A DNA stretch of 64,000 nt. It comes from Styela clava (Eukaryota > Chordata > Ascidiacea > Stolidobranchia > Styelidae). The first letter of the stretch is position 1. Every line of letters starts with the position of its first letter. Made by a program: the position numbers and the translations under genes. Below the pieces are notes generated by a model. The model searched no databases and had not been told where the DNA came from. It worked only from the letters and a program-made list of their open reading frames with translations. Positions 13,971-39,500 of the stretch are shown in pieces. The DNA lies in contig NC_135261.1 in the NCBI RefSeq assembly GCF_964204865.1, positions 9,176,001 through 9,240,000 of the forward strand. Direction: 5' to 3'.

Positions 13971-14446
13971 CCACATGATTCAATTACGGTGGGATAGGTT
14001 TGTTATTCCAGGATAATTTTCTTGGGGTTTCATTTTTATTACCGTCAGTGTTCATTTGGAATTGGATTGCCACAAATACTATACGAATAATTGTAATGGC
14101 TTACACTAAATACAGCGTACTTTAAAGATATTAACAAAATATAATGTGTTAAATTGCTTGATATAGTTTGTTAAATATTGCTCTTTAACCACGTTTTTTT
14201 AAACCTATTGATGATAGACTTTTAATGTGACTTTAAATATGTTTATTGAAGAAAAACTGAAGACATATACATGCACGTGAATAAATTACATAAAACCAAA
14301 ATATTTGAACATTAAGTTTGAATTAAACCATGTTTAAAATTGGCAAACCCCTTTCACTTAATTGGTTATAGTTTTGAACAATAAGTTATAACATTTAATT
14401 AAACAAATTTAATCACTAAAATTTTACTAGCATCAGTTTTCCGTTG

Positions 14447-16112
14447 TTAATATATTTTTTCGAAGTTTGTGCAGCCACCAAAATATAATTTCACTTGACT
14501 CCATCCACCTCCAATATCTGCTAGTTTGTTGTGGATACGAAGAATGTCCACTGGGGTTGGATGATTGTGTCTCATTGACGCCCAAACATATTTATCACCT
14601 GTACATTAATTCAAACAATCCAAATAAGAGATAAATTAGAAGTGTTTCTACAATTTGAATTGTTTGATAATTCCCACTTATGATTCGAGGCACACAACGT
14701 TTTTGCGGATTCAACATAATATTATCAAAAGTCAAATAACAAGGATGTTTTGGTCATTCTTCATGCGGTAATAACATTCTCATGTTTTTAAAAGAATGAA
14801 ATTTTTAATTTTGAAAAAGAATTGCTATGAATATTGAAAATGTCTTTTTGAGTTACATCTCCATCTTGTATAACTGGAGCGATATATGGTTAAAATGAAT
14901 CATTCATTGTTTACGTGATAATGATTCTAAATGTGACATGGTTTTTACGCTATATTTTAAATTGAGCCTATCAACAAAATTGTTTATAATTATCAAATCT
15001 TAATTAGTTAAGTATACGAAATCAATACTTACCTGCAGATGAGCATTGCATGTGCAGAATATAGTTTTCATAATCAGTCACTTCACTCATAGGCAAGGCA
15101 TAAAACTCGTGAACTTCTGAACATGAAATGGCAAATTAACAAATAAACTCATGTTGCAAAAGTACACCTTATCTTTTCGGAAAAGAAATGGAAAAATAAA
15201 TGTTTAACTTGATATGTTACCTTTTAAAGCCTCCTCATTTGCACCGTGGCTCTTTGCCTCGTTTATAAAGTAATGTTCTGTAAAAAAAAAAATCACCAAT
15301 ATATTACAGTAGAAAATATTACGCTTACTACTTTAAAGATTCATTTTAAATACCATATTTCTCGTCAGACATTGTGATGGACGTATCTCCGTAAAACCAA
15401 GCGTGCCCGGGTATAGGATCAGAAAACACTTTGCCACTGAAATTAAACATTATATATTTATAAAACATCGTAGAGGCATGTTACAAGATTAAATGTGTTA
15501 TTATGCTTGTTTTTGGTATGTGTCAACACATAGCACATATACTGAACATTTTCTTAGTAGTCGTACAGTGTTTTTTGTCTGTTCCGTGGAACAACATTGT
15601 TTTTTCGTGGTTTTTTCAAATGGCGATTCTTCGAAATAAGCTGTAACATGGCTCTCCAGTGATACATAAGTTGTCAATATTTAACCAATGTAAATTGTGT
15701 CGTTGAAATTAACGATCTGTGAGCGCACTGAAAATAATTTTCTAGAAATAATTCAGCCTCACTTTTCAACAGCGAGTACAATTTCTCCTGAAAGATATTC
15801 ACCATCATTTGATATTCTTTTCATGTCTTTCGTTACGTAACAGGGTACTTGTTGTTCAACTGGATCTTTGGAGTTGAGTACTTGATACCAAATACCGGGA
15901 ACCTAAATTTAAACACGGATAGATGTCGCAGATTTTTATTCGTATTTAAATTCCAAACCTTCCTATGTAATAAGAATATGTAAAGAAAAATGTTATCTTA
16001 CTTTGCTCACGTCTATTTTTTCAAAAACTGGTAAGGTGCATTCTTTATTGGATGTTGCTTTGCTAACTGCCAAGACACCAAGGTAAGTTAAAACAGCAAG
16101 TCTTGAAATCAT
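14447..16112 (-). CDS. Lipocalin-family secreted protein (minus-strand paralogue)
   Basis: Six exons on the minus strand: 16002-16112, 15763-15902, 15354-15436, 15221-15277, 15033-15116 and 14447-14598. All have GT-AG junctions, and together they encode 208 aa. The start is chosen because it opens a signal peptide (MISRLAVLTYLGVLAVSKA). The mature part begins near SNKECTLPVF. Exon 2 carries the lipocalin hallmark G-X-W (VPGIWYQVL); the C-terminal exon holds a WSQVKLYFGGC run. Four cysteines (in KEC, VPCY, MQCSS and GGCTN) fit the two disulfides of many lipocalins. Family role: binding small hydrophobic ligands in a beta-barrel outside the cell; the ligand here is unknown. Compared with the plus-strand paralogue it has one extra residue (DGE for GE) and scattered substitutions. 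Instead of AATAAA, AGTAAA (complement at 14423-14428) sits about 20 bp after the stop. Confidence 0.88.
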
Positions 16113-16170
16113 TTTGTTTCCTGTCTTCGCCTCTTGAAACAGCTATGGTTTAATTGGACTGAACGTAGGA

Positions 16171-16180
16171 TATGTATAAA
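16171..16180 (-). promoter_or_regulatory. TATA-like box of the minus-strand lipocalin gene
   Basis: The minus-strand TTTATACATA lies about 59 bp upstream of the start codon, inside a 5' flank conserved with the paralogue (AAAATGTGTTTATA then CCTACGTTNAGTC). Confidence 0.55.
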
Positions 16181-17164
16181 CACATTTTGTGTTATGGTAT
16201 AAGATGTTGGCTTGGTTCACGTAACGTAATGGGTATTGATTAATATGTGAAGGAGAAGCCTTCTTGAGATGTTTTTAGATCGGCATTACATTTATATATA
16301 CATAGATATCAAATTTATTTATTTTCTCTTAAATATTGTGATTCTCAGCTTTATTCTAAGAACTCGAATCAAGGAGGTAATAAGCTAATTATTATATCAA
16401 ACTTCGCGTTGAAAATGCTTCTTACGCACTAGTTGGTATTGCAAGATCAACTGCATGCCTTCAATCAATCCAGATTACAGCGGAAATTTGAACTTTGTCC
16501 TACCTCATAATTCTTCGTCTTCTCGCAGTATGTTTACATGATGCAGCATACTATGTACAGTCGCGAACACGTTAGATTGAATATTTGGTTTAATCATATG
16601 CTCATTTAAATTCATTGCAATAGTTATACAATGCATGACATATATATATACATATGATTCAGAAATTTGCATAGGCATATACAAAATTCGCCTTAATTAT
16701 GGACAAAAAGACCCAAGCTTGAACCTCGCGGAATACCACATGATATTACTAGTAATTGGGAAGTCGAGTACTAATTCTTTGACGCAAGTAGCTCATCAAC
16801 ACTACAAATGACAAACATCCATTTAAAGTACGTTACTACTTACAAAATGCTAGCTACAATGACACATTTAAATTAGTAGAATATGCGTCAGAATCTAAAT
16901 AAATTCCAGGTAATCCTATACAATTATTGCATATTATTATCAAGATACACACACAAAAGTCATCTTTGCCAATTTTCTCAGCGGGTCATTATTTTAGTTT
17001 ATTTTTTCTGTTAGATTAGTTTCCTCTAGAATATCACAAGCATTCGTAACAGCGACAAAATGAATGATTAATAGTTGTGTTTGTGTTATTTGTCTTTGTG
17101 TTGGTATACAATCATAACACGGGTAGTTGGCTAAATATATAACGTTGGGATCAATTAATGCCAC

Positions 17165-17905
17165 GTTCAAAATAAAGTAATTAGGGTTACAGTGTATTAC
17201 CATTATGCAATTACTCGCGATTGAACAGCATTTCGTCACCAAAAGCAAACGAAAAGCAAGCTCTATCACAGTGCATATCAACCATTTTAGAAATGATAAA
17301 CTTTTTCAACAACTACTCAAAATCTGGTACACCCCAACCATTCTTCGTTTTTAATCGTTCAAAAAAATCAATGTTTAAAATATACACGTTGTTCTTGGGT
17401 GACCGACCATCCAGTTGTAAAAGGCGAGATAGTAACCTTGTCTCTTGTGCCCCTACCATTCGTGTAACCGCATCATTGGAGTGGAAAACCATTGAGGTTT
17501 TCGTGTAAGACTTGGGTACTCAGGAATTTTTAATAGTGCCTGATGTATTGACGTCTGCCTTGGAACCAAATCCGCTCTTAATTCAAGAAGTTTACCAAAA
17601 TCACGCGTTTTGCTAGGAAAAATCCAGACTTAACTGCATTTCCTCGAATTAATCTGACCAAACAATCTTAAGTTTCATATATATACGATAGGAATTGTGA
17701 CGCTTGAGTTTTTTCGGAAGACTGAAAAGTCGATGATATCGAGGCTTCTCGGCCTACAAACTGCTGCAAATTCTTCCTATCTCACAAAAAGGTTATCTGT
17801 CAACATATGAACATTTTGTTCCAACAGTAATGGATCATTTCTTTTTCTCTCGGAAAATTGAGCGTCCAGAAGGAAAAACACATTGTCACGCAAACATCGG
17901 CGAGA
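17165..17905 (+). repeat. Cluster-specific repeat R, copy 1
   Basis: The sequence is clearly related to 25285-26045 (same strand) and to the complements of 21565-21860 and 29620-29875. Shared markers include TTTCGTCACCAAAAGCAA, CAATGTTTAAAATA-CACNTTGTTCTTGGG and ACATATGAACATTTT. Short open frames appear in several copies but differ in frame and length, so I do not treat it as coding. It lies in the spacer between the lipocalin arms. It appears to travel with the small-peptide gene unit (exon 1, exon 2, downstream, R). Confidence 0.65.
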
Positions 17906-18974
17906 AGTTGTGGAATATAATTATAGGAAATCCGCAACCCAAATTTTCGACTGCCCATGAAGGAAAACTAAGATTGAAAAATGTTTCAAATTTCCCGTCT
18001 CTTGTGCCGACTGCGCGACTTGTCTTTCCTCGTAAATGTAAAGTGACAAAGAAACGAATGCGAGATTTGGGTTATCGTGACGAAGCCGGAAAATGTTTAG
18101 GAGCTTCGTGACAGATAAAATATGTTATATTGACACTGTTGACACTGCGTGTAGTTACCAAGGAAAATGATAGAATGCTCACTGAAAACGATCAACAATA
18201 TTTCGTGTGCAATGTAGCAATGTACTTTTTAATTCAATGTCGGTTTCAAACGAGCCAGCTTCGCATGTATACTTCCCAAAATCATGAAATTACAAAATGC
18301 AAAAGCTTTTCTGCTTGAGTTGTTACTGGTAAGTTGTCTGTCAGCGCTAGAACCCATGATAAAGTCTTTAGTAAATGTATGCATATTTTCAACTTTTACA
18401 TTTGAATTGAATAAATCAGGCAATACGCTATCACAGGATATAAACAAAGAGCCGCTTGAAAACGCTCGTAAGTATGACAGTTGACAGCTTCAAAAACATC
18501 AATATCTACTGACTTTGTCTAAACCAATCGACTAGAAAAAAAATAAGAGAGAATAAAACGGCAGCAGTATGTAAACTAAATATTCAATCGAACGTGTTCT
18601 CGACTATACATGGTATGCTGCATCATGTAAACATAATGCGGGAAGACGAAGAATTGAAGGACATGAGAAGTATCAAACGTACGATAGATGCCGAACTTAT
18701 TAAAGGCAAGCCATTGGTCTTACAATACCAACTAATGTATATAAGAAGCATTTTCAACGCGACGTTTAATATAATAATTAGCCCATGTACTTTTGACAAT
18801 CGCGTGAAAGACATGCACAACAAACGATTCAAAGTCCCAGTACTCTAAAATACACCTACTCAATATGATTCATCATCAAGGATTGTCATTTTTGTCGCAT
18901 TTTTGAGATTTTGAGAGAGAATAATTTATGAAAAAATAAATAAAATTTGACACATATAAATTTCATGCGCTCTG
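17906..18974. other. Spacer between lipocalin arms, no supported gene
   Basis: Several 60-95 codon open frames overlap on both strands, the longest being 18594-18848 plus. None has a recognisable domain or a paralogue in the window. Confidence 0.45.
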
Positions 18975-19070
18975 AAAAAATCTCAATAAGGCTTCTCCTC
19001 CACACAAATAATCAATACCCCTCATTACATTACGTAAATCAAGCCAACATACCATACACATAAAATGTGT

Positions 19071-19080
19071 TTATATATAA
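19071..19080 (+). promoter_or_regulatory. TATA-like box of the plus-strand lipocalin gene
   Basis: TTATATATAA lies about 58 bp before the ATG at 19138, the same spacing and flank as in the paralogue on the other arm. Confidence 0.6.
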
Positions 19081-19137
19081 CCTACGTTGAGTCTAATTTT
19101 ATCGTAGCTGTTTCAAGAGACGAAGACAAGAAACAAG

Positions 19138-20925
19138 ATGAATTCGAGACTTGCTGTTTTAGCTTACCTTGGTGTTTTGGTAGTTAGCAAAGCAACATCC
19201 AATAAAGAATGCACCTTACCAGTTTTTGAAAAAATGGACGTTAGCAAAGTACGGTAACATCTTTCCTTAAATATTTTATTAACAGAGCTAAGGATTGGAA
19301 TTTAAAAATACGAATTAAAATCTGTGACATCTAACCGTATCTTAATTTAGGTTCCAGGTATTTGGTATCAAGTACTCAACTCCAAAGATCCAGTTGAACA
19401 GCAAGTACCCTGTTTTGTAATGAAAGACACGAAAAGAATATCAAATGGTGAATATATTTCAGGAGAAATTGTACTCGCTGTTGAAAAGTAAGGCTGAATT
19501 ATTTTTATGCGTTCAGAGATCGTTAATTTCAACGCATCAATAATTTACATTGGTTAAATATTGACAGCTTCTGTATCACTAGAGAGTTGATGAAAATTAC
19601 AAGCCATGCTACAGCTTATTTCGAAAAATCACTATTTGAAAAAATCAAGGAAAAACAAATGTTGTTCCATTGAACACTGTACCACTACTAAGAAAATGAC
19701 ACATTTATTATGCGCTGTAAAATGCCTCTACGAGTCTACGATGTCTTATAAATAATGTTCAATTTCAGTGGCAAAGTGATTTCTGATCCTATACCTGGGC
19801 ATGTTTGGTTTCAAGGAGATACTTCTATCGTAACATCCGACGAGAAATATGGTATTTAAAATGAATCTTTTAAGTATTGAGCGTTATATTTTCTATTGTG
19901 ATATATTGAGGATTTTTTCTACAGAACATTACTTTATAGACGAGGCAAAAAGTCACGGTGCAAATGAGGAGGCTTTAAAGGGTAACATATCAAGTTATAC
20001 ATATACTTCTTCACATTCTTACAAGAGCTATCAAAATTTCGACCTCAAGAATATTGTTTTACCACTGTCCAACTAATTTCGGAAAAATAGTTTTGTTTTA
20101 TCCAAGTACATTTGCGAGACTGTATTCAACTAATGAATCTTAAAATCGGTTTTCAATTTTGATGGTATCGTTTCTGTTCTGTATATATATGATGTATTTT
20201 TGCAACATGGCTTTTCTTGATAATTTTCCTTTCCATGTTCAGAAGTTCACGAGTTCCACACCTTGCCTATGAGTGAAGTGACTGATTATGAAAACTATAT
20301 CCTTTTCATGCAATGCTCATCTGGAGGTAAATATTGTCTTTGTTGGTAAATAAATAAGATTTGACGCAGTTATAAACAATTTTGTTGATATGCTCAATTT
20401 AATATACAACGTTAAAACTATGTCATATTTAGAATCATTATCACGTAAACATAGAATGATTTCTTTTAACCCTATTCCGCTCAAATTATACAAGATGTAA
20501 CTCAAAAAGACATTTTCAATATTGATGGCAATTTTTTTTTCAAATGTAAAAATTTCATTTGTTGTAAAATCTGAGAATTTTAATACTGCATAAAGAATGA
20601 CCAAAACATACTAGTTATTTGACTTTTTATACTATCATGTTGAATCCGTAGAAATGTTAGCAAATGTGCCCCGACTTATGGGTGCGAAATAGCAAGCAAT
20701 TTTCGAAATAGTTCTGATTTATCTCTCATTAAATGATTAAATTGTATAAATCCATATGTAAATAAATTTGCAGGTGATAAATATGTTTGGGTGTCAATGA
20801 GACACAATCATCCAAACCCAGAGGACATTCTTCGTATTCACAACAAACTAGCAGATATTGGAGGTGGATGGAGTCAAGTAAAATTATATTTTGGTGGCTG
20901 CACAAACTTCGAAAAAATATATTAA
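19138..20925 (+). CDS. Lipocalin-family secreted protein (plus-strand paralogue)
   Basis: Six exons: 19138-19248, 19351-19487, 19769-19851, 19925-19981, 20243-20326 and 20774-20925. They join in frame to 207 aa. Residues 1 to about 20 form a signal peptide (MNSRLAVLAYLGVLVVS). Exon 2 starts with VPGIWYQVL, the G-X-W motif of the first lipocalin strand; the last exon has GGGWSQVKLYFGGC. Four cysteines sit at the same places as in the paralogue. The length fits a lipocalin, and the protein should be an extracellular carrier of a small lipophilic molecule; ligand unknown. Exon sizes match the minus-strand copy except for one codon in exon 2. The first donor reads AAA|GTACGG, a weaker donor than the GTAAGA of the paralogue. 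A canonical AATAAA follows the stop at 20944-20949. Confidence 0.9.
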
Positions 20926-20943
20926 CAATCGAAAACTGATGCC

Positions 20944-20949
20944 AATAAA
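20944..20949 (+). terminator. Polyadenylation signal AATAAA of the plus lipocalin gene
   Basis: AATAAA begins 19 bases after the stop codon. At the corresponding place the other copy has AGTAAA. Confidence 0.6.
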
Positions 20950-21564
20950 ATTTTAGTGAATAAATTTGTTCAATTAAATGTAATAATTCATTACTCAGAA
21001 CTATAACCAACTAAGGGGAAAGTGCTTTGTCATTTTTAAACATGGTTTAATTCAAACTTATTGTTCAAATATTTCAATTTTATTCAATTTATTTACGTGC
21101 ATGTATAGGTCTTCCGTTTTTCTTCAATAAACATATTCAGAGTCACATTGAAAAATCTATAATTAATAGGTGGAAAAACCTCTGTTAAAGAGCAAAATTT
21201 AATGCATTATATCAAGCAATTAAACACTTTGTATCTCATTCATTAACGTCAGCTCAGCTCATTCAGTGCATGCGATCACAAATGTTCGTATATTATTTGT
21301 GACAATTCATTTCCAAATGAACACTGACGGTAATAACTACCAAATCCCAAGAAAATTATACTGGAATAACAAATCCTGTTCTACCGTAACGTGATCACGT
21401 GGTGCTCGCCGCATTTTGTACTAATAACGGTTGGTGTCACGTAGTTTTCAAAAGAAGAGATAGATCAGTTAGATGTGTGTAAGCATAAATCTAAAAAAGC
21501 CCAAGGATTTTCTGCTCTAAAAGGCAAAGATGCGGTTACACGAATGTTGGGGGACAGTTTTAAC

Positions 21565-21860
21565 AACAACCTCGATTTTTTACAACTGGCTGGTGAAAAA
21601 CAAGAACAACGTGTATATCTTTGAAACATTGATTTTTCCGGTCGATTAAATATGAAGGATGAGTGGGGTGTACCAGATTTGAGAGGATGTTAAATTTCCA
21701 TTACCATTTCAAAAATGGTTGATGAGCACTGTGCCAGAGCTTTTTCGTTGCTTTTGGTGATGAAATGCAATAAACTGCAACCCCATACCGTATTTACTTG
21801 ATTCTAAATTTGGCATTAATTGATCTCAACATTAGATATTTGACCAGCTACTTATTATAT
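21565..21860 (-). repeat. Cluster-specific repeat R, copy 2 (inverted)
   Basis: Reverse complement of the first part of the R copies at 17165 and 25285, with shared GAGCACTGTGCCAGAGCTTTTT-type sequence and GCTTTTGGTGATGAAATGC. It lies just 3' of the small-peptide gene at 22223-22574. Confidence 0.65.
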
Positions 21861-22073
21861 GATCGATTTTATTTCAAGCAAGGTTGTGATGAAGTCAATT
21901 GCTTCCAAATATTAACCTCATTTTACCTTTTCTCTATCACTCTCATTCAGTCTCTCAAAATGAACTCAGGAACCTCGCAATTAGGCAAAATAAAACTAAC
22001 GTTTGATGTCAATTTTTAAGATCATTTTCTAAATGCCTATGTCTGTGGCGCCCTTTAAAATATTAAAACTTGA

Positions 22074-22220
22074 TATCAATAGCTTTTATTTATCATTATT
22101 GTAATATGTTTGATGAAATGTTATAACGAATAGCCATCTATAAATATCTATCAATAGCCTTTATTTATCATTATTGTAACATGTTTGATGAAATATTATA
22201 ACGAATAGCCATCTATAAAT
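22074..22220. repeat. 75-bp tandem duplication just 3' of the small-peptide gene
   Basis: Two direct copies (22074-22148 and 22149-22220) differ at only a few bases, both containing TTTATTTATCATTATTGTAA and ATAACGAATAGCCATCTATAAAT. Each copy holds the complement of AATAAA, so the gene has two possible polyadenylation signals. The related gene at 30843 has only one shorter version. Confidence 0.8.
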
Positions 22221-22222
22221 TA

Positions 22223-22574
22223 TTAATAAATTTGTCTGCTTCTTGGCTTGCTTAAAAAATTTTCTTCCAAATCTTCTTGCTCGATCTCATCATTACGTCC
22301 TAAAAAAATAAAATTTTCTGACTTGAAAAGTACAAAATAATTTAAGCATCGCAACATAGGGTAAATATTCTCCGAAATGCAATATCGAGACGTTTCGAAA
22401 TCGGGTGACACTGAATTGTTTCAACACTTTATTTTATAATTTTATATTATAGAAAATACATTAAGACCAGTTCAGTCTTCGTTACTACTTACTCAGTCCA
22501 AATAAGTATGCATTTGCAAGCAGGCTCAAATTGATCACAATAAACATAGTCGAAAGCAGTAACTTTGAAAACAT
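22223..22574 (-). CDS. Two-exon small secreted-peptide precursor, 52 aa (copy 3)
   Basis: Exon 1 is 22493-22574 and exon 2 is 22223-22299, minus strand, with donor CTGA|GTAAGT and acceptor TTTTTTTAG|GA. The precursor has a 22-residue signal peptide (MFSKLLL...SLLANA), then YLFGL, then Arg-Arg, then an acidic tail (NDEIEQEDLEENF) and a short altered C-terminus (LSKPRSRQIY). The first Arg of the pair is split across the splice junction (A|GA). This looks like a prepropeptide: signal, short core, dibasic convertase site, acidic propeptide, though the acidic part could equally be the active product. A TATA-like TTTATAAAC lies about 55 bp upstream (complement at 22628-22636). I recognise no known family. 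The C-terminus differs from the sister gene at 30843, probably because of the local tandem duplication. Confidence 0.72.
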
Positions 22575-22609
22575 TTTTGCAGGTGTTTTGTCAGAATATC
22601 TGAATAACT

Positions 22610-22850
22610 TAATGTATTTGTGCGATGTTTATAAACACAGAAAGTAAAAGAATAGATGTTTCAATATCGTTACGAGAACAAATGACCTTTGTTTGACGTG
22701 ATAGTCATTTTAATTTTATTGTTGTGTTTCCAACACAGTCACCTGAAAATGTTCACATGTTGGTAAACACAGAAAGTAAAAGAATAGCGTTACGAGAACA
22801 AAAGACCTTTGTTTGACGTGATAGTCATTTTAATCGATATAATATTGCAA
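22610..22850. repeat. Short direct repeat in the 5' flank of copy 3
   Basis: AAACACAGAAAGTAAAAGAATAG followed by GTTACGAGAACAAANGACC and GTTTGACGTGATAGTCATTTTA occurs twice about 130 bp apart. The first copy sits directly upstream of the TATA-like box, so promoter elements may have been duplicated. Confidence 0.6.
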
Positions 22851-23565
22851 TATTATACAAAGTGTTACAGTGCATGGCGGGAAAGCCTGATTGTATCGTA
22901 GTCGGAGATGGACATTTTTTGCAAAGCAATATTGTTGGTCTCAATTTTATTAACCAAACGTATTTTTCATGGTGAGTTGTATGGGCCTAAAAATATCATT
23001 CATCCACAATAAGTTTCAAGTTGTGAATAAATTTATACATAATTTATTATAAAATCTACTACATGTCCTTCCTCACGTATCTGCAAATCGGTAGATTTTC
23101 TGCGTGTTAGTCTGTAAAGGCATTCGTGGTTGTTTTGTGTATTATTTTCTTTACTACTACCATATTATTATGAGTTTGCCTTAGGGGTAGCTCCTTAAAT
23201 AATCTTTATTCTTTATTTAACTTAACTTTGAGTAGTTTTGCGTTTCGCTGGCAATAATGGTTATGGGAATATTCAGCCAAGTCTTCATCAACGAACACAA
23301 CAAAGAGAATCGCGATAATTATCATTTGCATAAATTGTCTCACTGTCTTAAAAAAAACTGCAGCTTCACCTCTCTTGGAAGGGATGCGTAGAAACTAAAA
23401 CAGGACTACTTCATTTGTATCTGTGTTTCTGTTTTTATTTGGCATTTTGCTTTTTCCTTTGCTCGCCCCTTGTCACAAACATGTCACGAATAATTAGTTT
23501 CATTTCGCTCTTAGTGGTTTCTCACGACACTTTGATAAAGTCGAATTTGGCGTGTCGTCTAACCG

Positions 23566-23745
23566 AAGTAACCATTACAGTAATCTGTGATTCATTGCCC
23601 CCAGATATGTATATATAATTCAGACCGCTCATTAGAAACTTAAGGTTTGCAAATCAATATTAGTTGAGTGCGTCATAAAACAACCAGAGAGCAACTTATT
23701 CAAGGGATCGATCGCAGGAAATCACAAATTACTGTAATGGTTACT
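23566..23745. mobile_element. Small palindromic MITE-like element
   Basis: The ends are inverted copies: AAGTAACCATTACAGTAAT on the left and ATTACTGTAATGGTTACTT on the right. It is about 180 bp with no coding capacity and interrupts the block that is continuous in the sister copy near 32450. Family not assigned. Confidence 0.6.
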
Positions 23746-24175
23746 TTGCATGTCCCATCACTAATTAATTAATAACTCACTAATTATACGACATAATTCA
23801 TCCAAAATCAATAGGCTTCTGGTCCGAGATATGATGAATGCACATGCAAACTTTGGAGCAGATTCAACCTCGTTTTCGTGAGATATCGCGTGCATCTAAC
23901 AGACAGAAAGACAAACAGACAAATACCTATCAACATACTTACCGATCAAGATCGATAAGAAATAACAAATTCGTCTCAATGTATTTTTTAGAATTACTTG
24001 GATGAGTGAAGTATTCAACGTGTCCAGATGGTTTATAATATAAAATTATAGAATAAAGTGTTCAAACAATTCCGTGTCACCCGATTTCAAAACTTCTCGA
24101 TTTCGCATTTCGGAAAATATTCAGGATATGTTGCGCTGCTCAACCTATTTTAATTCACAATGTTTAATTTTACAG

Positions 24176-24303
24176 GACACAGTGGCGAAATCGATCATTT
24201 GGAAGAAAATGTTCAAGCAAGCCAAGATGCAGAAACATTTGTTAATTCATTGATGACTATTCGTTATGGAACTTCATCTGCATATTACAATAATGATAAA
24301 TAA
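24176..24303 (+). pseudogene. Second exon only of the small-peptide gene family (copy 4)
   Basis: After an acceptor (TTTTACAG) the sequence encodes an acidic tail related to the intact genes (GEIDHLEENVQASQDAE), followed by a 17-residue extension before a stop at 24301. The position after the junction is His (CAC) where the intact genes have Arg, so the dibasic site would be lost. Intron-like sequence homologous to the intact genes is present back to about 23960, and then unrelated sequence begins. No first exon is found upstream on the plus strand. I call it a truncated relic, although splicing to a distant first exon cannot be excluded. Confidence 0.6.
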
Positions 24304-25284
24304 AAGATATTGTGATAACCTTTCATAGTTCAGAGGTCGCCACAGACAAGAGTTCTATTGTAGTGGCCAAAAACAATTTTGAGTATTGACATTAAAAATT
24401 AGTTTTATTTTTTTTAATTGCGAGGTTTCCGCGTTCATTTGGGAGACTGTGTGGGAGAGATAGAGAGAAAGTAATGGGGGTTTAATATTCGGAAGAAATT
24501 AGTTTCATCCCAACCTTGCTCGCTTAAAATACAATACAATTTTATTTCGATCTTTCGTCTACAACACAGAACACGAATAAACAAGAGAGCTACGCCCAAA
24601 TATATGGACACGTCTGTTCGCAGTACAGTACAGTGTACTGTATCGTCGATCAGCGTAAGGAAAAAATCGTAGCAAAGTACCGTAAGGACTTCGTTACGAA
24701 CCATCGACGTTCGATGGCACGTGATCAAAAAGAAGTGGAGTGTCGGCTATGCGTCCGCAGAACGTTCGGTGACGTCATAGCAAACAAAAACAAATCTCAC
24801 AGAGCTAACAGAAATATTTGAAATAAATAAAAGTAATAGCCTTCTGGAGAAAAATTTCATCTTTAACCAGTAAATATTTCGAAGCAATCGATCCAGTAAT
24901 GAAAGAGAAAAGCGGTTTTTTAGATTTTCCACTAGATGTCCAAAAGTGTCAAAGAACAACAACAACAAGACCAACATAATATTGAAACGATCGTTATGTC
25001 CACTACGTGTCTAAAAACACAGATAAGCACGACGGAAAGATCGGGAAAAAGGGCAAAACCTAGAGAAAGGTTTATATCGAACGCTGTAACCAGCGTTTGT
25101 GCCCATGCACTCACACGCACACAAGTGGGAAAACACATCACGAGTCACGACAGTCTTGCGGAAAATACATGAACATGAAAAAATAAAATTCACGGGCGAA
25201 GATTACTTGTAAAGTTGTAACTAATTTTGGTGAACGAATATGGTGAAGAATTCAAAATCAATTAGAAGTTATGTGAGGGTGCAT
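24304..25284. other. Shared downstream flank then unmatched insert
   Basis: Positions 24304-24560 match the sequence after the second exon at 26070 (GAGGTCGYCACAGACANGAGT; ATTGTAGTGGCCA). From about 24570 to 25284 the sequence has no partner in the window and holds overlapping 60-80 codon frames on both strands, with no recognised domain. A near-palindrome, GTACAGTACAGTGTACTGTA, lies at about 24622. Confidence 0.5.
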
Positions 25285-26045
25285 GTGGGTTGCAGTGTAT
25301 TACCGTTATACAATTACGCGCGACCAAAAATTTCATCACCAAAAGCAACGAAAAAGCTCTAGCACGGTGCTCGTCAACAATTTTTGAAATGGTACACCCT
25401 TTCAACTTCCACTCATAATCTGACACATTACACCCATCTATCATTTTTAATCGGTCGAAATATCAATGTTTAAAATACACACATTGTTCTTGGGTTTCAC
25501 CAGTCAGTTGTAAAAGAGAAGTAATAAACTTGTCTCGAATGCACCTAACATTCGTGTATGCTTACGTGTTTGTGATAGCGGAAAACCATTGAGCTTTTTG
25601 TGTGAGACTTGGGCACTTGAGAATTCGCCGTGGTTTTTATATGTATGTATTGGCCTCTGCCTTTTTGCCAACTTCGCTTTTAAATATTTCACCAAAATTC
25701 CTACTTTAACAACATAATTGACCTCATATACGTGTTTAGCTAGGATAATTCCAGATTTAGCTGCATTTTTTAAAGTTAATCTGACCAAACCCTCTCAAGT
25801 TTCATACGAGTACAGTTAAAAGGAATTGATGTACTGCAAAGGAAATTATGACACTTGAGGTTCATCTCGGAAAACTTAATATCGAGGCTTTCGGGCTACA
25901 AACTCCTAAAAATTCTAGGTATCTCACAAATAGGCTATTTGTCAACATATGAACATTTTATGCCAACCACCATGGGTCATTTTTTTTTCTCCCGGGAAAT
26001 TGACCGTCCAGAAAGAAAAGCATATTATTACGCAAACGTCGATAT
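25285..26045 (+). repeat. Cluster-specific repeat R, copy 3
   Basis: Co-linear with the copy at 17165-17905. It joins directly onto the last bases of the intron before the second exon at 26070, so a first exon has been deleted or never included here. Confidence 0.65.
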
Positions 26046-26069
26046 TTTTAACTCACAAATTTTTTTTAG

Positions 26070-26149
26070 GACGTTATGGTGAGATCGAGCAAGGAGATTT
26101 GGACGAAAAGTTCAAAGCAAGCAAAGAAGCAGCAAAATTTAATTCATAG
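26070..26149 (+). pseudogene. Second exon only of the small-peptide gene family (copy 5)
   Basis: The acceptor TTTTTTTTAG is followed by GA-CGT, then a 25-residue acidic tail (YGEIEQGDLDEKFKASKEAA) and stop. Length and phase are identical to the intact second exon at 30843-30922, and the residue forming the dibasic site (Arg) is kept. No first exon lies upstream; repeat R abuts the intron remnant instead. Either an orphan exon or part of a gene using a distant first exon. Confidence 0.6.
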
Positions 26150-26461
26150 ATAAAACTATTCGTTATCGAACTTCATCGGACAAAAATGATAAATAAAATC
26201 TATTGAGATCAAGCTTTAAAGTTTTAGAGGTCGTCACAGACATGAGTACTATTGTAGTGGCCAGCAATAATTCTGAAAATTGACATAAAAAAAATCAGTT
26301 TTATTCTTTTTAATTGCGAAGTTAACGCGTTCATTTTGAGAAACTGGATGGGAGTGATAGAGAGAAGGTAATGAGATGTTAATATTTGGAGGAAATAAGC
26401 TTCTTCCCAGCATTGCTCCCTTGAAATACAATACAATTTTATTTCGATCCTTCGTCTACAA

Positions 26462-27066
26462 CAGCGATTCCCAAAGTGGGTGACATCGCCCCCGGGGGCG
26501 AAACAGAGGGCAAAAATTATAAAGAGGCGACAGGGGGCGATTTTGCAGTCTCGAAAAGTCAAATATTGTGAAAATTGCCGAATGTTTTCCTCGGCATGAT
26601 GTGGGTATTTAGGTCGTGAAAGTGCCAAAAACACGTTATTATGTGATCATCTGAGACGAAAAAACATAAATTTTGTTTTAGGAGTACCGAGACAAATTGA
26701 AAACTCTATTTTAGACTGGAATAAATCGCAACATTTTGGAACTTTCTTTCGAAAACTTTACCGTACTCACCTGGAGGTGATTCATTCCGTTATCCGTTAT
26801 TAAATTACCGCCGGGTCGCACACGACTTTTTTTTTTTTATTGTGATTGTGATATAAATCCAATCAATGTAATAATGTAAAATTTCGTCGTCGACCTTGGG
26901 TATTGCTAACGGCGATATCTTGTAAATTCAATTCTAATTCTAATTATAATCGGGTAGTATACCATATATTTTTATGTACGGAGATTGGAGTATTTCAGAG
27001 CAATAATACTTTAATTTATTGTAAGTATAGGCGCAACGCCGAACTATTTTTGCACAGCTGACAAAT
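26462..27066. other. hAT-like terminal sequence and AT-rich DNA
   Basis: At 26462 the flank of the peptide unit breaks into CAGCGATTCCCAAAGTGGG followed by GC-rich CGCCCCCGGGGGCG. This is the style of a hAT-type terminal repeat. I could not find a convincing matching right end. Another hAT-style end, CAGTGGTTTCC followed by CGCCACCCC, occurs at about 27489. No gene was recognised. Confidence 0.4.
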
Positions 27067-27303
27067 CGGTACTCCCGAAGTATGTGAACCAAGATTGTGG
27101 ACACCGAAACGCAGTATGTGTACCAGGTTAGGGTTAGGCCATAATTTCAGGTACGAATACTATGGGAGTCACTTGGCTAGTCCCCGAACTCGTGATAGAA
27201 CTAAAATCAGAAAATTGGAATAAAATTACGACCTAACTCTAACCTGGTACACATACTACGTTCCGGTGTCCGCCATATTGGTTCACATACTTCGGGAGTA
27301 CCG
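27067..27303. mobile_element. Hairpin MITE with long inverted repeats
   Basis: CGGTACTCCCGAAGTATGTG at the left end is matched by the complement CACATACTTCGGGAGTACCG at the right end. The inverted identity runs far inward (GTGTACCAGGTTAGGGTTAG against CTAACTCTAACCTGGTACAC), so the whole 237 bp can fold into a hairpin. A half copy of the right side is at 34846-34921. Confidence 0.8.
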
Positions 27304-28142
27304 AAAAATCATCATAACCGAAAACATAGACAATTTTAACGAATGGCATAATCGCGAGCGAGGACCGTTCAATCGGAATTCCAGTTTCCTACTTCAGATA
27401 CAGACGTGCACCCTCGTGCACGAACTTGCGCTATTCGATTAAAACATGTATCCTGAACAAGAGGTATTTTAGTAACAGTCTTATAGGACAGTGGTTTCCA
27501 TTTTTTTTCGCCACCCCAATTTTCATAAAATCAAAGCCTACAGATACTCGCGACCCCATAACTAGAAACGTTCGGCAACTTCAAAAATCAGTATATCAGT
27601 TTAATTATCTCAATGGGAATAATGTACCTGTATACCGACCACCTGTATACCGCAAGTGGACGTTGACGGTGAGCACTGTCCCAAAAAATATATGAATGAG
27701 TCCGGCAATGCGCCGGAAAAACGGGGAAACCTCAGAAGATTTGATAACACATAGCATCGTATGAAAACCCACGGTGTAAAGATCTCTTAGATCAGAATTA
27801 TACCGGGTCTTGGAGAAACATAGACGGACTTGATAAAATATGGTAGACTGTAAGGAAGCGTAAAATACTTCAGAAATTGTAACATTGCTTCTAAATATAC
27901 ATATATTTAAAATCCTATTTAGTATATTTCAACAATGTCTTTTTTTAGTTCAATGTTAACATATTACAGATTGCTTCATTATTAAATCGAAAGTAAAACA
28001 GAGCATGAAAGTAAAATAGGAAAAAACGTGTAACGGAATAACATCATTTAAGTGCCTTTTATTCTGCTGGAACTTGATGTGGTTTTGTGTTTGACTGCTC
28101 GAAACGCTTCGAAATTATGTATGGATGTCTACATATTGCAAA

Positions 28143-29385
28143 TAGAGATGTACCGATACCACTTTTGATACCAGCTAAAAACGCCGATACCGATACCGAT
28201 ACGCCGATACTACAAAGAGGCCGATATTCCGATACCGATACTATGTAATTATTACTTAATTAGGTATGCTGTGTAGGGCAGACGGGTTAAAACAATGGTC
28301 TTTAAGCGTTTTTCATAGTACACATTATTTCAGATCGAAAAAAAGATATATATATCACATAATATGAAAATAATGTTTGGTATCCATATGCTGTAACTGA
28401 TTAAGATACATTGTACAGTAACGCTAGTAATCTCGGTGTTCAATTAGAAAACTCATAAGCCGAGATGTCCAATTTGAATTTAATGTTAATATCGCGAGCT
28501 TCGAATATCGTTATTCGTGTTTAAAAGAATATCGAATATCACCCACACATTCTAGCGCCGCCGTCCTACGTTCAAATTAAAAGCATTTTACAAATATTTA
28601 ATTTAGTGGCTAATCGTAATCGTCGACGCAATAAGTCAAAGCCAACATGAAAGAATATCAATCAGCACCGACAAAAAGAAGGCCCACCGATAACCGTTGA
28701 GGATGTTTTTTTACTCCACTATTTTATAATATTTTACAATCGCTATCATATATTTTGAGACAGTCTAGGGCTAGGCGGTCAAGTCAATATATCTATAAAG
28801 AAATCGTGTAGTTAAGCAGAATTAAAATTAATACCTGTGTAGTGGGATAATTGTGTCGGAATTTAGTTTGTCGATGTTGACGGACTAAATGACACTCGTA
28901 CTTGACGACAAACAGTCAGAATTTATAACCGTGCCGAAAGTCCATGTGCCGTTAATAAGGAAGGACCCCAATTCCACTGTATGATTTAAAACTGGGCGCC
29001 TAGTTGCTTTTTGTTATGTGCTGTGTTGATATATTTCTTCATAAAAACTATGTAATATTAAAAATGTCAATATGAAAATTTGACAGCGAAAATAGCCAAA
29101 TTAGTTGAGCTAGTTTAGCTGATAAATAGCTAAAAACACGTGAATCCTATTCTCTCGCAGGGGTGGGGACATGTATGGCTCATAGCTCACGATCTCTCCA
29201 GACAAAAATAAACTAAAAAGTAGTATTCCAACTTATATTTTAAAACATTCTGGACCATATCAAAAAGGTAAATATATCGGTAATATCGGCCCTAATCTAA
29301 CCGATACCGATACATGGCCGATACCGAAAAAATGGCCGATATTGCCGATACCGATACCCGATACCGATACATCGGTACATCTCTA
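28143..29385. mobile_element. Non-autonomous hAT-type element, copy B
   Basis: Same family as 9360-10554 and co-linear over most of its length. The ends TAGAGATGTACCGATACC and GGTACATCTCTA are inverted. Flanks ATTGCAAA and ATTGCAAT (7 of 8 identical) look like an 8-bp target duplication. Both ends have CCGATACCGATAC tandem units, more numerous on the right than in copy A. No transposase frame. Confidence 0.82.
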
Positions 29386-29619
29386 ATTGCAATGAGGCAA
29401 TGGGGACAAAAACACGTAGCCTATTCGTAGATTTTAGACACGTGCGCGATTTAAGAATGCGCTTTCGAGACTGATCGAAACCTAAATTGTGATTTCTCGA
29501 CCAAGACACCGCCTGGCAATCAATACTTGTCAAACACCTAATTAAGGGCCCATCGCCAAATAAACCAAATTTGCTTCGTATATTCGATAACTAAGCGGCC
29601 ACACTGATACAAAAAAAAT

Positions 29620-29875
29620 TGATTTTTTCGATCAATCATAAATGAAGGATATGGAGGAAGGAAATGGGGGGTGTACCAGATTTTGAGTGGACGTTGAAAA
29701 GGTGTACCATTTCAAAAATTGTTCACGAGCACTGTTCTAGAGCTTTTTCGTTGCTTTTTGTGATGAAATGCTGTTCAGTCGCGCGTAATTGTATAACGTT
29801 AATACACCCGGTACCGTCATTACTTGATTCTAAATTTGGCATCAATTAATCCCAACATTATATATTTGACAAGCT
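29620..29875 (-). repeat. Cluster-specific repeat R, copy 4 (inverted)
   Basis: Reverse-complement relative of the R copies at 17165 and 25285. Same orientation and position relative to the peptide gene as the copy at 21565. Confidence 0.6.
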
Positions 29876-29883
29876 ACTTATGA

Positions 29884-30619
29884 CAGGGGTGGGCACAAAT
29901 ATTTAGTATAAGAAACGCATGCTGCAAGTCAGAACTTTAAAAGAGCCGCACAATTTGTGAATTTATTAATATTATCAAAATACCATGAACAGAAAAGAAA
30001 TTCACACAAGAGTCTAATAACAATAAATAGATAAACAAGGCAGCTATGCTTAATAAATATGTGCAAAATTTGAGCTCATTTAATTTGTGTTTCCTTATAG
30101 CAGATTTACGAGGGTAGTCTCGTAAGAAGTTTTCATGATTCGTTTCATGGTGCTGTTTAACATTGTTGACTTTATTTTCACTTAGTAGCTTATGGCAGAT
30201 TAAGCACAAATGTTTATTCTCCTGACTGGAAAATGCGTATTCTTCTTCCCATTCTGACTTGACAACTCTGTTTTCATCTTCGCACTTTCGTTTTTTAATT
30301 GAGGACATATCGCACAGAAACTTGGATTAACTAACCGCAATCAAGCTGCAATACCGCCGACGCATCAATAGACATTGACCATTGTGACGAAAGATTTGCT
30401 GACTTGACTGACTTAAATTCAAAATTCAACGCTACAGCGATTTTCATACTGAAACATAATTTGTCTTAATCATTGACTAAAACTTCTTTACGACTTTTAA
30501 TAAATTAAAAAAGTTTACATTAAAGTTTTTCTCTTAGTTAAAGTTTGGATAATAATGTTAGCGAGAAGATCCGCACGAAAAGTCTGGCGAGCCGCGGTGT
30601 GCCAACCCCTCACCCATGA
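29884..30619 (-). mobile_element. Truncated hAT element with BED-type N-terminal transposase fragment
   Basis: The left end, CAGGGGTGGGCAC, and the right end, whose complement reads CATGGGTGAGGGGTTGGCAC, resemble hAT terminal repeats. The flanks ACTTATGA and TATTATGA match at 6 of 8 positions, and the insertion splits sequence continuous in the sister block near 21860. The minus-strand frame 29937-30308 starts MSSIKKRKCEDENR and has W-E-E-E-Y-A-F followed by a C-X2-C...H-X5-H BED-like finger, then runs into unrelated AT-rich codons. This is the N-terminal fragment typical of GTF2IRD2/ZBED-style hAT transposases, so the element is an internally deleted copy. Confidence 0.7.
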
Positions 30620-30629
30620 TATTATGATC

Positions 30630-32455
30630 GATTTCATTTCAAGCGAGCAATGTTTTTTAGATTTTTTTTTCCGTCAGTCGCATCTAATCTCTCAAAATGA
30701 AAGATGATACCTCATGATTAGACAGAATAAAACTGATTTTTGATGCCAGATTTCAGAATAGAACTCATGCCTGTGACGCCCTCCGAAATATTGACCAAAG
30801 ACGTTGATCTCAATATCTTTTATTTCTATAACGAATAGTCATCTATGAATTACATTTTGCTGCATCTTGGCTTGCTTGGAGATTTTTTTCCAAATCTCCT
30901 TGCTCGATCTCACCATTGCGTCCTATAAAAATAAAATTTGTGACTAAAAAATATAAAAATAAATTAAACAGCGCAACATATGCTAAATATTTTTCAAAAT
31001 TCGATATCGAGAAGTTTTGAAATCTGGTGAAACGGAATTGTTTGAACACTTTATTTTATAATTTTATGTTATAAACCACCTAAAAACGTTGAATTCTTTT
31101 GTCATTGAGGTAATTCTAAAAAATACATTAGGACAAGTTTGGAGTTTTTTATTCTATTATTGGATATATAGGAATTAAATCAGTTCGAGATAAACTAAAA
31201 TAATTTACGAGATATTGTTTCCATGAACTTATATGAGCTATCGTGTAAGAAGACTCATTCATTGCATGTATTCATTATTACTTACTCAGTTCCAATAATA
31301 ATGCACTCGCAAGCAGGCTCAAATTGATCACAATTAGCATAGTCGAAAGCAGTAACTTTAAAAACATTTTTGCAGGTGATTTGACAGAATATCTGAAGAA
31401 TTTGATGTATTTGTGTTTAGAGCACAGACACCTGAAAAATTTTACATGTTTGTTGACAAAAAAAAAAGATCGATGTCGAAATATTGTTACACGAACTAAC
31501 GACTTCATACATCAGAGTCATTTCAATCAATATATGATCGCAATGTTTACAAAGTGTTACAGTGCATGACGGTAAAGCCTAACTATATCGCAGTCGGAGA
31601 TGGACATTACATTGCAAGGAAAAATTGTTGGTCTCCATTTTATTAATCAACGTATTTTTATTGGTGAATTTTGTGGGCAGAAAAGTCTCATGCATCCAGA
31701 AAAACTTTCAAGTAGTGAAAACTTTTATACATGCTTTAATATAAAATCTTCGCATAGCGGAATTTCAATAACCTTGCCTATTTTTATTTTTTTTTAAATT
31801 GATTGCCACTTGATCAGTTCAATCATATTTGGTAACCTCAGCAACTATGAAGTTTTCATAACGTGAAGAAACTGTTGATTTCCTGGTCATTGCCCGTCGT
31901 CTTTTGAAATTTGTCAAATATCAAGTCAATCGGCAGTTACCATGCACTGAAAATCTACTAAATGTCCTTCATCACGTATCTTGCAAATCGGTAGATTTTG
32001 TACATTAGACTGTGAAGGCATTCGTGGTTGTTTTGCATATTATTTTTATTACTACTACCATATATTATGATTTTGCTTTGAGTGTATCTCCTTATATACT
32101 CTCTGTTCTTTATTAAACATAACTTTGACGAGTAGTTTTGCGTTGTTCTGCCAATAATGAGTATGGAAATATTTTGACAAATCTCCGTCAACAAACGCAA
32201 CAAAAAAAAATTGCGACTCTTATCATGAGCATAAATTGTCTTACTGCCTTATGAAAACTATAGCTTCAAATCTCTTACAAGGAAAGCGTATTAAATGAAA
32301 CCAAAACTACTTCATTTGTATATGTGTTTCTGTTTTTATTTAAATTTCTGCTTTTTTCTTTGCTCGTCCCTTGTCACGAATAACTAGTCTTGGTTGCTCT
32401 TCACGTTCTCACATATGACGTTGACAAAGTCGAATTTGGCGTGTCGTCTAGCCGA
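30630..32455. repeat. Segmental duplication block Q (pairs with 21870-23567)
   Basis: Co-linear with block P, same orientation. It includes the intact small-peptide gene at 30843-31367 and its 5' flank. Divergence is moderate, with numerous indels outside the exons. Confidence 0.8.
30843..31367 (-). CDS. Two-exon small secreted-peptide precursor, 53 aa (copy 6)
   Basis: Exon 1 is 31286-31367 (27 codons plus one base) and exon 2 is 30843-30922, minus strand. Donor CTGA|GTAAGT, acceptor TTTTTATAG|GA. The signal peptide MFLKLLL...SLLASA fits cleavage after Ala22. The remaining sequence is LLLEL, then Arg-Arg formed across the junction, then the acidic tail NGEIEQGDLEKNLQASQ and a C-terminus DAAKCNS with a single Cys. 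The dibasic pair is the expected site for a proprotein convertase. The single free Cys could allow dimer formation. The TATA-like box of the sister gene is degenerate here (TTTAGAGC where copy 3 has TTTATAAAC). The complement of AATAAA lies at 30819-30824, 19 bases after the stop. Family and function unknown. Confidence 0.72.
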
Positions 32456-36558: not shown

Positions 36559-39500
36559 CAGTGGCGGCGCGTCAATAGGGCCAACCGGGGCAATGCCCCG
36601 GTTGTTTTTTCGGTATAATAAAAAATATTCGAAAAATACCTCAATATCGGTTGCACAGACTGTCTACACGCCATATTCTCCCGACATGGTTCATTTTTCG
36701 CTCGCAAAGCTTTCGCCGAACGTCGACGGGGCGACGCCGATTTTGCCCCGGTTGCTCATTGTATATCGTATTCTCTCTTTTATCTTCCACTCGCCGCGTT
36801 TGTCTCGTTTGTTTTCTGTTTCTTCTACTAAATCATCGGGGCCGATCGGGGCTAGCCCCGAAATTATGACGACACAATGCCGACGTTTCTTACAACAACG
36901 TGTTGACATATTCCGCATTCCTTCTCGTTCGTTGGTTGCTTGAAGAGTTGATAGTTTCCTCGCCTTCGTTTTTGTCGCTTGTTTCGCTATTTGAATCAGT
37001 TAGAGACCTTTAGTCCATTTGCTTTCGATTTTCCACATTCCTTTTGAGCTCCTCACTTCTTTCCGGCTTCGCATTTCTTAGCCTTAGACCTCATAATGAA
37101 TAAGGTTGATGCACTACTTCGCACTCCGTTTTCGCAGCTGCCGCTGGAACAAAAATTAGAGGTACAACGTCTTGGGCCTTATCAACCAAAAAATTGTTCA
37201 CTGGAACAATCCCATGACGGAGGAAAGCGTCGGCGTACATTCTGCGCAGAAACTTGGTATAAAAAACACGAATGGTTGTGTTACAGCGAGGACAAAAATG
37301 CACTTTTTTGTTTTTATTGCCTACTTTTTGCTACCGCCCGTGACTCACGTTGGTGTAAATTTGGTTTTAGAGATCTTAAACATCTTTCCGAGCGTGCCAG
37401 GGATCATCAATCTTCTATGGAGCATCTGGACAATGCAGTAAAATACCGAACATTCGGAAATGTTAATATTGCAGCACAGTTGGATGAAGGACGCGCGGTT
37501 TCTATTCGTCGGCACAATCAAAACGTCGAGAAAAACCGCCATGTTCTCGGTCGATTGATAGATGTTTTGAAGTTCATTGGTTGTCACGATCTGTCCCTCC
37601 GTGGGCGCGATGAACGGACTGGCTCTTCTAATAGAGGGGTATTTTTGGATATGGTGAAATACACCGCATCCCTAGATACAGTATTGAGAGATCATCTTGA
37701 TGCCGCAACTGTTTCGAAAGGGACATCTAAGGATATCCAAAATGATTTGCTCGACTCAATGTATAAAATTTATTTACAACATTTGGCTCTGGAAATTGAG
37801 AATTGCCAGTTCCTTTCGATTCAGTCTGACGAGACAACTGACATCACGTGCGTTTCCCAACTGGCTGTGATTTTTCGGTTTGTGAAAGATTGTGAACCTA
37901 CCGAGAGATTTCACAGCTTTGTACCAATCGTTGATCGCACGGCTTGCGGGATATCGGCTGTACTGAAAGAAGTGTTACAGCCTTACAACGCCAAGTCAAA
38001 ATTGATAGCTCAAACTTATGACGGCGCGGCAGTCATGAGTGGGTCGAAACATGGTGTTCAAGTTTAAATATAAAAGAAGATTTTCCTCATGCGCATTTTT
38101 TACATTGTTATGCACACCAATTTAACCTCGTTATTAAAAATATGTGTCTTGATACCCCTCTCGTCCGTATATTTTTCGCAAATGTTTCGGGGTTTTCTTC
38201 ATTTTTTTCCGTTTCGCCGAAGCGCTCTGACCTCCTTGCCAGATATGTAGCCGCCGTCTCCCAGCTTGTGCACCAACACGTTGGAACTTCCAATCACGCG
38301 TGGTGCAGGGCGTGTCCGAAATTAGGTCTGAGCTCATTGAGTGTTTAAATGGCATTCAGAGCTCTCCGGTTTGGGACGAACGCTCTGTAAGGGAGGCGGC
38401 AGGTCTAAAGCGTCTGCTAGAAGATGGTGAGTTTTCATTTTTTCTCCACAATATTCTATCACGTGGATGTATTATACGGCGCATTGCAGTCAAGGCTAAT
38501 GGATGGAGCGTCTGTGCAGTCGTGTATTTCAGACTTCTGCGATGCTGTATCTCGTATCCGGGAAACAATAAAATACGACGACACATGGAGTGCTTCTTTA
38601 CGCCGCGAGCAAACAACGCAGCGTTTGATTTTGTCTGCAAAGGAATGCTGTGACATTCTGGTGAATCAAATAGGCGATCGTCTGCGCACTGAACACCTTG
38701 CCGCGTTCTCTTCGATGAACCCCAAAATTTTTCAAAATTTGCACTTCAATTTCCCATCCATTTGTTGGCTACTGTCTCCAAATTTTACCCCATGATAAAC
38801 GTGGGTAAATTGGAAAATGAATTGCGATGTATATACACCAATAAAACTTTTTTGAACATCACATCAACTTGCGCGCTCTATGGGTTCCTCATAGATAACA
38901 CTCTAGTAACTACCTTTGCGGCGTCTGCAAAATTTCTGGACATCATTTTGACGACGCCTATTTCTTCCGCCGACGCAGAGCGAACATTCAGCACGCTGAA
39001 GCGTATTAAAACGTATCTCAGAAACACAATGAAGCAAGATAGATTAAATTCCTTGGCTGTTTTATCCATTCACAGAGACGTTATTTCTGGATGCATGACT
39101 TTAATCAGCGCGTCATTGAGAATTTTGCTTCCAAGAAACCGCGGCGTGTTGCATATATGTTCAAGCAGTAGAAGTCTAGCAGCATATATATCTATGAGTG
39201 AGCGACGCATGTCCTTATCTTTGCATTAACTTTCCTTTCTTTATAGTAACGTTTTAAACCTTATTTTAGGTTTTGTCTGCTTTCTCGAAGTTTCTGTTAA
39301 TATGTCATTGTATTTATCTGGGTAAATATTGCCTTTCCTTTTGAAAGAGGTTTCAAAATAAACTATGTCTATATTTATTAATCCCTTGACTTGGACCGGT
39401 TTTAAAGACACTTTCTTATCGTTAAAAATTGTCGCTTTTGCTGATTGGTTGTTACCGATGGAATGGTTTTTATACTCATAAAATGATGGGAGAACTTACA

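Follow-up and report, generated by a model that had tools for sequence, protein, structure and literature searches.

A small, locally duplicated family of putative secreted precursors in Styela clava with an exon junction resembling that of the clavanin genes

The window analyzed here is a stretch of 64,000 nucleotides from the ascidian Styela clava (contig NC_135261.1, C16:9176001-9240000, in a 376.6-Mb assembly of 379 contigs), and it contains a cluster of very small genes and gene parts that appear to encode secreted precursors. The copies were assigned to a younger clade, gene 1 and gene 2, and an older clade, the copies at 8900 and 12532, in first-exon comparisons. Numbered from the first letter of the window, the features of the cluster are as follows.

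31286-31367, minus strand: gene 2 exon 1, predicted signal peptide and LLLEL, with phase-1 donor GTAAGTAA
30843-30922, minus strand: gene 2 exon 2, split Arg, Arg and acidic tail NGEIEQGDLEKNLQASQDAAKCNS, then stop
30819-30824, minus strand: gene 2 AATAAA, 19 nucleotides past the stop
22493-22574, minus strand: gene 1 exon 1, predicted signal peptide and YLFGL, with phase-1 donor GTAAGTAG
22223-22299, minus strand: gene 1 exon 2, the tail's second half being in another frame than in the other copies
22160-22165, minus strand: gene 1 AATAAA, 58 nucleotides past the stop
24176-24303, plus strand: orphan second exon with RH for RR, a 6-base deletion and a longer frame, the stop overlapping an AATAAA
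26070-26149, plus strand: orphan second exon RRYGEIEQGDLDEKFKASKEAAKFNS
8900-8981, minus strand: older copy exon 1, predicted signal peptide and LLYGG, with donor GTAAGAAC
7073-7152, minus strand: probable exon 2 of the 8900 copy, (G)RK-VKQNILEETFPVSYEAEQLGALE, with ATTAAA 29 nucleotides past the stop
12532-12610, minus strand: older copy, exon 1 only, predicted signal peptide and LLYK, with donor GTAAGAAC

Reading and translation of the region gave two exons for each of the two genes: 22574-22493 and 22299-22223, with a product of 52 residues, for gene 1, and 31367-31286 and 30922-30843, with a product of 53 residues, for gene 2. The first exon encodes 27 residues in both genes, the introns are 193 and 363 bases long, the donor is GTAAGT in phase 1, and the acceptors are T-rich, ending in TTTTTTTAG and TTTTTATAG. 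The terminal exon starts with GA, and in both genes an Arg codon is divided A/GA by the intron and followed by a second Arg. The split codon at the putative cleavage site simply reflects the phase-1 intron at that place. The original prediction, made from the letters of this DNA, had described this junction, and had placed in the window two genes of two exons each, a pair of orphan second exons and a pair of diverged first exons; the junction was confirmed in both genes, and all of the elements were found at the claimed places. It had also taken both genes to be intact, which held at most for gene 2. Beyond ...LEEN, a one-base length difference puts the tail of gene 1 in a frame different from that of gene 2 and of both orphans. 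The acidic motif EIEQxDLE, assigned to the tails, was present in gene 1, gene 2 and the 26070 orphan but not in the 24176 orphan, which reads EIDH--LE, has RH at the RR position and lacks two codons.

All four ATGs were preceded by in-frame stops, 57 to 147 nucleotides upstream, and the N termini were signal-like by a rule only (a basic n-region, a hydrophobic core and A-x-A). An AATAAA was detected 58, 19 and 43 nucleotides past the stops of gene 1, gene 2 and the 26070 copy, respectively, with an ATTAAA in the 8900 copy, although poly(A) signals add weak support, because AATAAA has a local frequency of ∼0.002 per position and the copies do not count as independent cases. Together, the upstream stops, signal-like N termini, consensus splice sites and poly(A) signals lent reasonable support, at the level of gene models, to a secreted-precursor family, and this part of the prediction of a secreted prepropeptide family was sustained.

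A profile of the four second exons gave a fifth match at 7171-7094 on the minus strand, with an E value of 0.0057 in the window and of 0.023 in 264 kb (the window plus 200 kb of flanks). The exon at 7152-7073, which follows the 8900 first exon downstream at a distance of 1.75 kb, has a proper phase-1 acceptor, the ATTAAA and an acidic frame whose length fits, so that the 8900 copy is probably a third complete precursor. This copy had been described as a first exon only; the first exon is present, and the probable second exon had been overlooked. The predicted precursor is MFSKLYFFVMLFYVIFSLFANA-LLYGG-GRK-VKQNILEETFPVSYEAEQLGALE if the stronger donor, GTAAGAAC, is used; use of a weaker donor 3 bases upstream would give a product one residue shorter. 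For the 12532 copy, no family-like second exon was found in 8982-12531, where the best candidate among the top 14 listed (10 to 60 residues) scored 30; the 8900 copy's own exon, one of the references, scored 129. Likewise, no family-like first exon was found upstream of the 24176 or 26070 orphans (13000-26070, plus strand). Two signal-like first-exon candidates upstream of the orphans on the plus strand, at 18356 and 22908, were rejected, as neither was family-like, and, by eye, the corresponding stretch next to gene 2 does not conserve the latter. The 22908 candidate is a signal-like open reading frame (ORF), MDIFCKAILLVSILLTKRIFH, at 22908-22971 on the plus strand, with a GTGAGT donor at its end; it lies opposite gene 1, and the 24176 orphan is downstream of it. 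From their sequences, gene 2 and the 8900/7073 copy are at most the only fully intact-looking copies; the remaining copies are truncated, have no found second exon or have a tail out of frame.

The relationship among the copies was examined with a rule and with profiles. A signal-like N terminus followed by a phase-1 GTAAG or GTGAG donor, a rule devised after the genes had been seen, gave exactly four matches in the window, all family members, and one match summed over 20 dinucleotide shuffles. A DNA profile of the gene 1 and gene 2 first exons recovered the 12610 copy (the exon at 12532-12610; E value, 2.4e-6) and the stretch at 8941-8904 (3.9e-4), and the reverse profile, from the older first exons, recovered 22574 (3.1e-6) and 31365 (1e-4). 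As the DNA profile of either clade recovers the other, the first exons of both clades are, on sequence similarity, homologous. Cross-clade protein profiles were weaker, with E values of 0.005 and 0.06 in one direction and 0.0036 and 2.5 in the other. The cross-clade likeness was confined to exon 1 (z scores of 3.6 to 5.1 in all four pairs), the 78-base flanks on either side having z scores of -0.7 to 0.9, which suggests that the signal exon was under constraint in the past.

No further convincing member was found in the 200-kb flanks, where the best other match to the second-exon profile had an E value of 0.4; a first-exon match ∼97 kb leftward (E value, 0.027) was rejected as apparently belonging to an unrelated open frame. 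A DNA search of the genome gave five matches, all of them copies in the window, and missed the older copies, and whole-genome protein searches recovered two of the four first exons and two of the five second exons. As these searches missed known members, genome-wide rarity is not claimed. Nothing in the window reached the gathering score of an Rfam family, none of the five proteins given to Pfam matched a family at E values up to 10, and the gene 2 precursor, the only one submitted, had no match in the PDB. COX1 had no match in the assembly, and 18 contig pieces, two of which read N, matched nothing in Rfam.

Analysis of substitutions gave nonsynonymous (Ka) and synonymous (Ks) values of 0.11 and 0.12 for exon 1 of gene 1 and gene 2 (Fisher P = 1.0), 0.09 and 0.15 for the first 42 bases of their tails, 0.15 and 0.07 for the tails of gene 2 and the 26070 orphan, and 0.19 and 0.23 for exon 1 of the older pair. 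Across clades, exon 1 had Ka values of 0.34 to 0.41 and Ks values of 0.57 to 1.24, with a nominal synonymous excess in two of four pairs (gene 2 and the 12532 copy, P = 0.017; gene 2 and the 8900 copy, P = 0.048; others, P = 0.13 and 0.38). By these values and tests, the recent copies look unconstrained and the older divergence, mildly constrained. The five-residue segment that precedes the basic site varied among the four copies (YLFGL, LLLEL, LLYGG and LLYK). Consequently, the suggestion that this segment could be the product is weak, as it is not backed by conservation.

The clavanin genes of the same genome were located with a clavanin A query, whose sequence is given in PMC8719109 together with a 23-residue listing of clavanin C. 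This query detected two genes on C1, with identities of 83% and 87%, and the 87% match equals clavanin C exactly as listed there. Both genes lie outside the window, ∼36 kb apart, at C1:10538332-10538400 (the exact clavanin C) and C1:10574722-10574790 (a variant). A spliced model of the clavanin C gene has three exons: the first encodes the signal part, the middle one is 20 bases long, and the terminal one encodes the pro-segment, the core and the tail. At the second junction stand NAKSLEE, an Arg split A/GA by a phase-1 intron, Lys and SEEEK, followed by clavanin and the tail. The second clavanin gene has a like three-exon layout and shares the first two exons and the start of the third.

The junction of gene 1, NAYLFGL-R(A/GA)-R-NDEIEQ, was compared with that of clavanin C, NAKSLEE-R(A/GA)-K-SEEEK. 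The two agree in spacing, in phase, in the split codon, in having a second basic residue and in the acidity that follows, so that a small signal-peptide precursor with N-A, five residues, a split Arg, a basic residue and an acidic stretch is common to gene 1 and both clavanin genes; gene 2 has SA for NA. The split Arg with basic and acidic residues is found in gene 1, in gene 2 and on the acceptor side of the 26070 orphan, and the 24176 orphan has RH. An AATAAA is present, by eye, at the stop of the clavanin C gene, and lies shortly past the stop in gene 1, gene 2 and the 26070 copy. The sequences, the splice signals, the homology among the copies and this junction anatomy in common with clavanin were directly observed. 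A gapless offset scan against clavanin, limited to the residues before the junction, had its best fit at offset 5 for all four family peptides, with a summed score of 55, compared with 15 for the next offset. Offset 5 superposes the junctions for three copies; in the 12532 copy, which is one codon shorter, N-A falls on N-A and the junction is one codon off. The summed score was reached at offset 5 by fractions of 0.0013 (whole) and 0.0053 (regional) of 1,500 shuffles. Among 18 rows of signal-like phase-1 ORFs with donors in the 264 kb, 3 were in register, all of the family, and 0 of 13 unrelated rows were (these 13 represent 12 different starts, none shown to be a real exon; the other two rows are the 12610 ORF and one nested inside it). 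In a MAFFT alignment, the clavanin core came out as an insertion that the family lacks. In local alignments of whole precursors with clavanin, fractions of 0.003 (gene 2) and 0.036 (gene 1) of 1,000 shuffles were as good.

Several results weigh against a clavanin connection. The resemblance is short and hydrophobic, and with any offset counted, 5.1% of the whole and 9.5% of the regional shuffles do as well on the summed score. The whole 8900 precursor was matched by a fraction of 0.76 of shuffles, and its junction has a split Gly, followed by R-K, rather than a split Arg. Signal parts alone gave values of 0.315, 0.109 and 0.004 for gene 2, gene 1 and the 8900 copy, respectively, and the parts after the signal were not alike, with 0.73, 0.94 and 0.97 of shuffles as good in local alignment. 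Furthermore, the clavanin signal sequence has an extra intron, bounding the 20-base middle exon, whereas exon 1 of the family is continuous, and no purifying selection was detectable among the recent copies. Other differences from the clavanin genes are the unrelated tail and the contig, which is C16 for the cluster and C1 for clavanin. Neither the complete precursors nor the orphan second exons contain the 23-residue, His/Phe-rich cationic amphipathic core. Since the parts after the signal are unalike, the whole 8900 precursor scores no better than shuffles, its junction splits Gly, and clavanin has an extra intron, common ancestry with clavanin, although likelier than not, is suggestive and not proven.

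Overall, the explanation that we tentatively prefer from these comparisons is that of a small, locally duplicated prepropeptide family built on a clavanin-type precursor scaffold that lacks the 23-residue cationic core. A real, small and partly broken family, and no new kind of system, is the best reading of the locus, which bears on Styela immunity and on how peptide genes evolve. We infer the common ancestry with clavanin, the cell type, the cleavage and the identity of the products. The precursor would enter the secretory pathway, signal peptidase would cut after A-N-A or A-S-A, and a furin- or proprotein convertase-type protease would cut at RR or RK. The products would be an anionic peptide of 23 to 24 residues (net charge, -3 to -4) and a hydrophobic stub of 5 residues, made in cells that produce clavanin-type peptides. 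For botryllin, another ascidian hemocyte peptide, the authors of PMC9966394 suppose granule storage of the propeptide, with cleavage following its release, and they report furin in the granules. The guess of a hemocyte or defense role in the original prediction is made more credible by the like layout and split-Arg basic junction of the clavanin genes in this genome. A bolder version, quite improbable, is that the scaffold is a modular exon cassette in Styela, in which one signal/pro front with its split-Arg junction is joined either to exons for a cationic helix or to exons for purely anionic peptides. The latter would be those seen here, perhaps acting as an antagonist, a neutralizer or a costored partner of clavanin in hemocyte granules. 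If the clavanin link is true, the locus would show an antimicrobial-peptide precursor scaffold losing or swapping its active part, and would supply a named gene set in a genus with well-studied hemocyte peptides.

The broken state of the cluster raised the question of whether it consists of remnants of a once-expressed secreted-peptide family, possibly clavanin-like, whose functional product is gone. This is a doubtful reading, which the near-equal Ka and Ks of exon 1 in gene 1 and gene 2, the out-of-frame tail of gene 1, the inverted orientation of the two orphan second exons, the first exon with no found second exon, and neighborhood repeats that adjoin or separate copies would all suit. However, all four first exons retain their frame, start, signal-like core and strong donor, conservation across clades is confined to exon 1, and a synonymous excess was detected in two of the cross-clade pairs. 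Were decay the whole of it, the locus would neatly exemplify how local copies arise and are lost in a region rich in repeats. It is unlikely that the family is lineage specific and unrelated to clavanin, its junction arising by convergence of a signal exon, a phase-1 intron and a dibasic site. The lack of similarity beyond the signal/pro region, the lack of Pfam and PDB matches among the proteins submitted and the any-offset shuffle values of 5 to 10% argue for convergence, but the coincidence of Asn-Ala, exactly five residues, A/GA, a basic residue and acidity in gene 1 and two clavanin genes, together with the failure of all 13 unrelated rows to fall in register, argues for a shared scaffold.

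Release of the five-residue segment as a bioactive, proctolin-like product by signal peptidase and basic-pair cleavage, possibly with amidation in the 8900 copy (LLYGG-GRK), is very improbable. The layout matches that of proctolin precursors as presented in PMC7179676, and the G-R-K of the 8900 copy would fit, but the segment is not conserved among the four copies, whereas the account in PMC7179676 has proctolin nearly invariant.

Other elements were detected in the window. A 1.2-kb repeat, with short GATACC-type tandem units at its ends, is present at 9396-10540 and 28167-29341 (90% identity); the former copy separates the two older first exons, and the latter separates gene 2 from the orphan exons. 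An inverted duplication, with arms at 13891-16602 and 18563-21480 that are ∼80 to 86% identical in blocks, lies between the older and younger copies. Just downstream of gene 2, at 29940-30326 on the minus strand, is an ORF with a Spin-doc-type zinc finger (PF18658; E value, 1e-6), possibly transposon related. Fragments of a hAT transposase, with DUF4371 and hAT dimerization domains over their cutoffs, extend across several ORFs at 37048-39229 on the plus strand. Exons of an EGF-domain protein occupy 50767-58040 on the minus strand; all five ORFs given matched EGF models, three of them over the curated cutoff, and similar DNA blocks occur among the exons. Elsewhere in the genome, at C9:16179895-16180164, a Glycosyl hydrolase 6 domain scored over its cutoff with hydrophobic open frames upstream, which is consistent with a tunicate cellulose-synthase gene; according to PMC7464555, this domain forms the end of cellulose synthase in tunicates. 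The domain points to a tunicate, and the exact clavanin C gene to a Styela.

The original prediction had found no known family with this layout; the clavanin genes, with the same junction, and the proctolin precursors, a known case in which a pentapeptide sits directly between signal peptide and basic site (PMC7179676), correct that view. Among the papers listed by searches of an open-licence library, none had a title or abstract opening that named a core-less clavanin-like family. Proctolin, as portrayed in PMC7179676, differs in that it belongs to arthropods, has precursors of 74 to 104 residues and is followed by a monobasic Arg; RYLPT did not directly follow the signal peptide in any of the four copies. 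Plicatamide and the tunichromes resemble the family as very short ascidian hemocyte peptides (PMC3039461) and differ in their dihydroxyphenylalanine-type residues, whereas each family segment holds at most one Tyr; a tunichrome-like product was ruled out on this ground. A plicatamide precursor, sought as an exact contiguous codon pattern for FFHLHFHY, gave zero matches in the genome (control, zero). The styelins and botryllin have mature peptides of 31 to 37 residues, strongly cationic in botryllin, as listed in PMC8719109 and PMC9966394, and no such cationic piece is present here. Their likeness to the family lies in the small size and secretion of their hemocyte precursors, which comprise a mature peptide and a propiece, as described for botryllin in PMC9966394.

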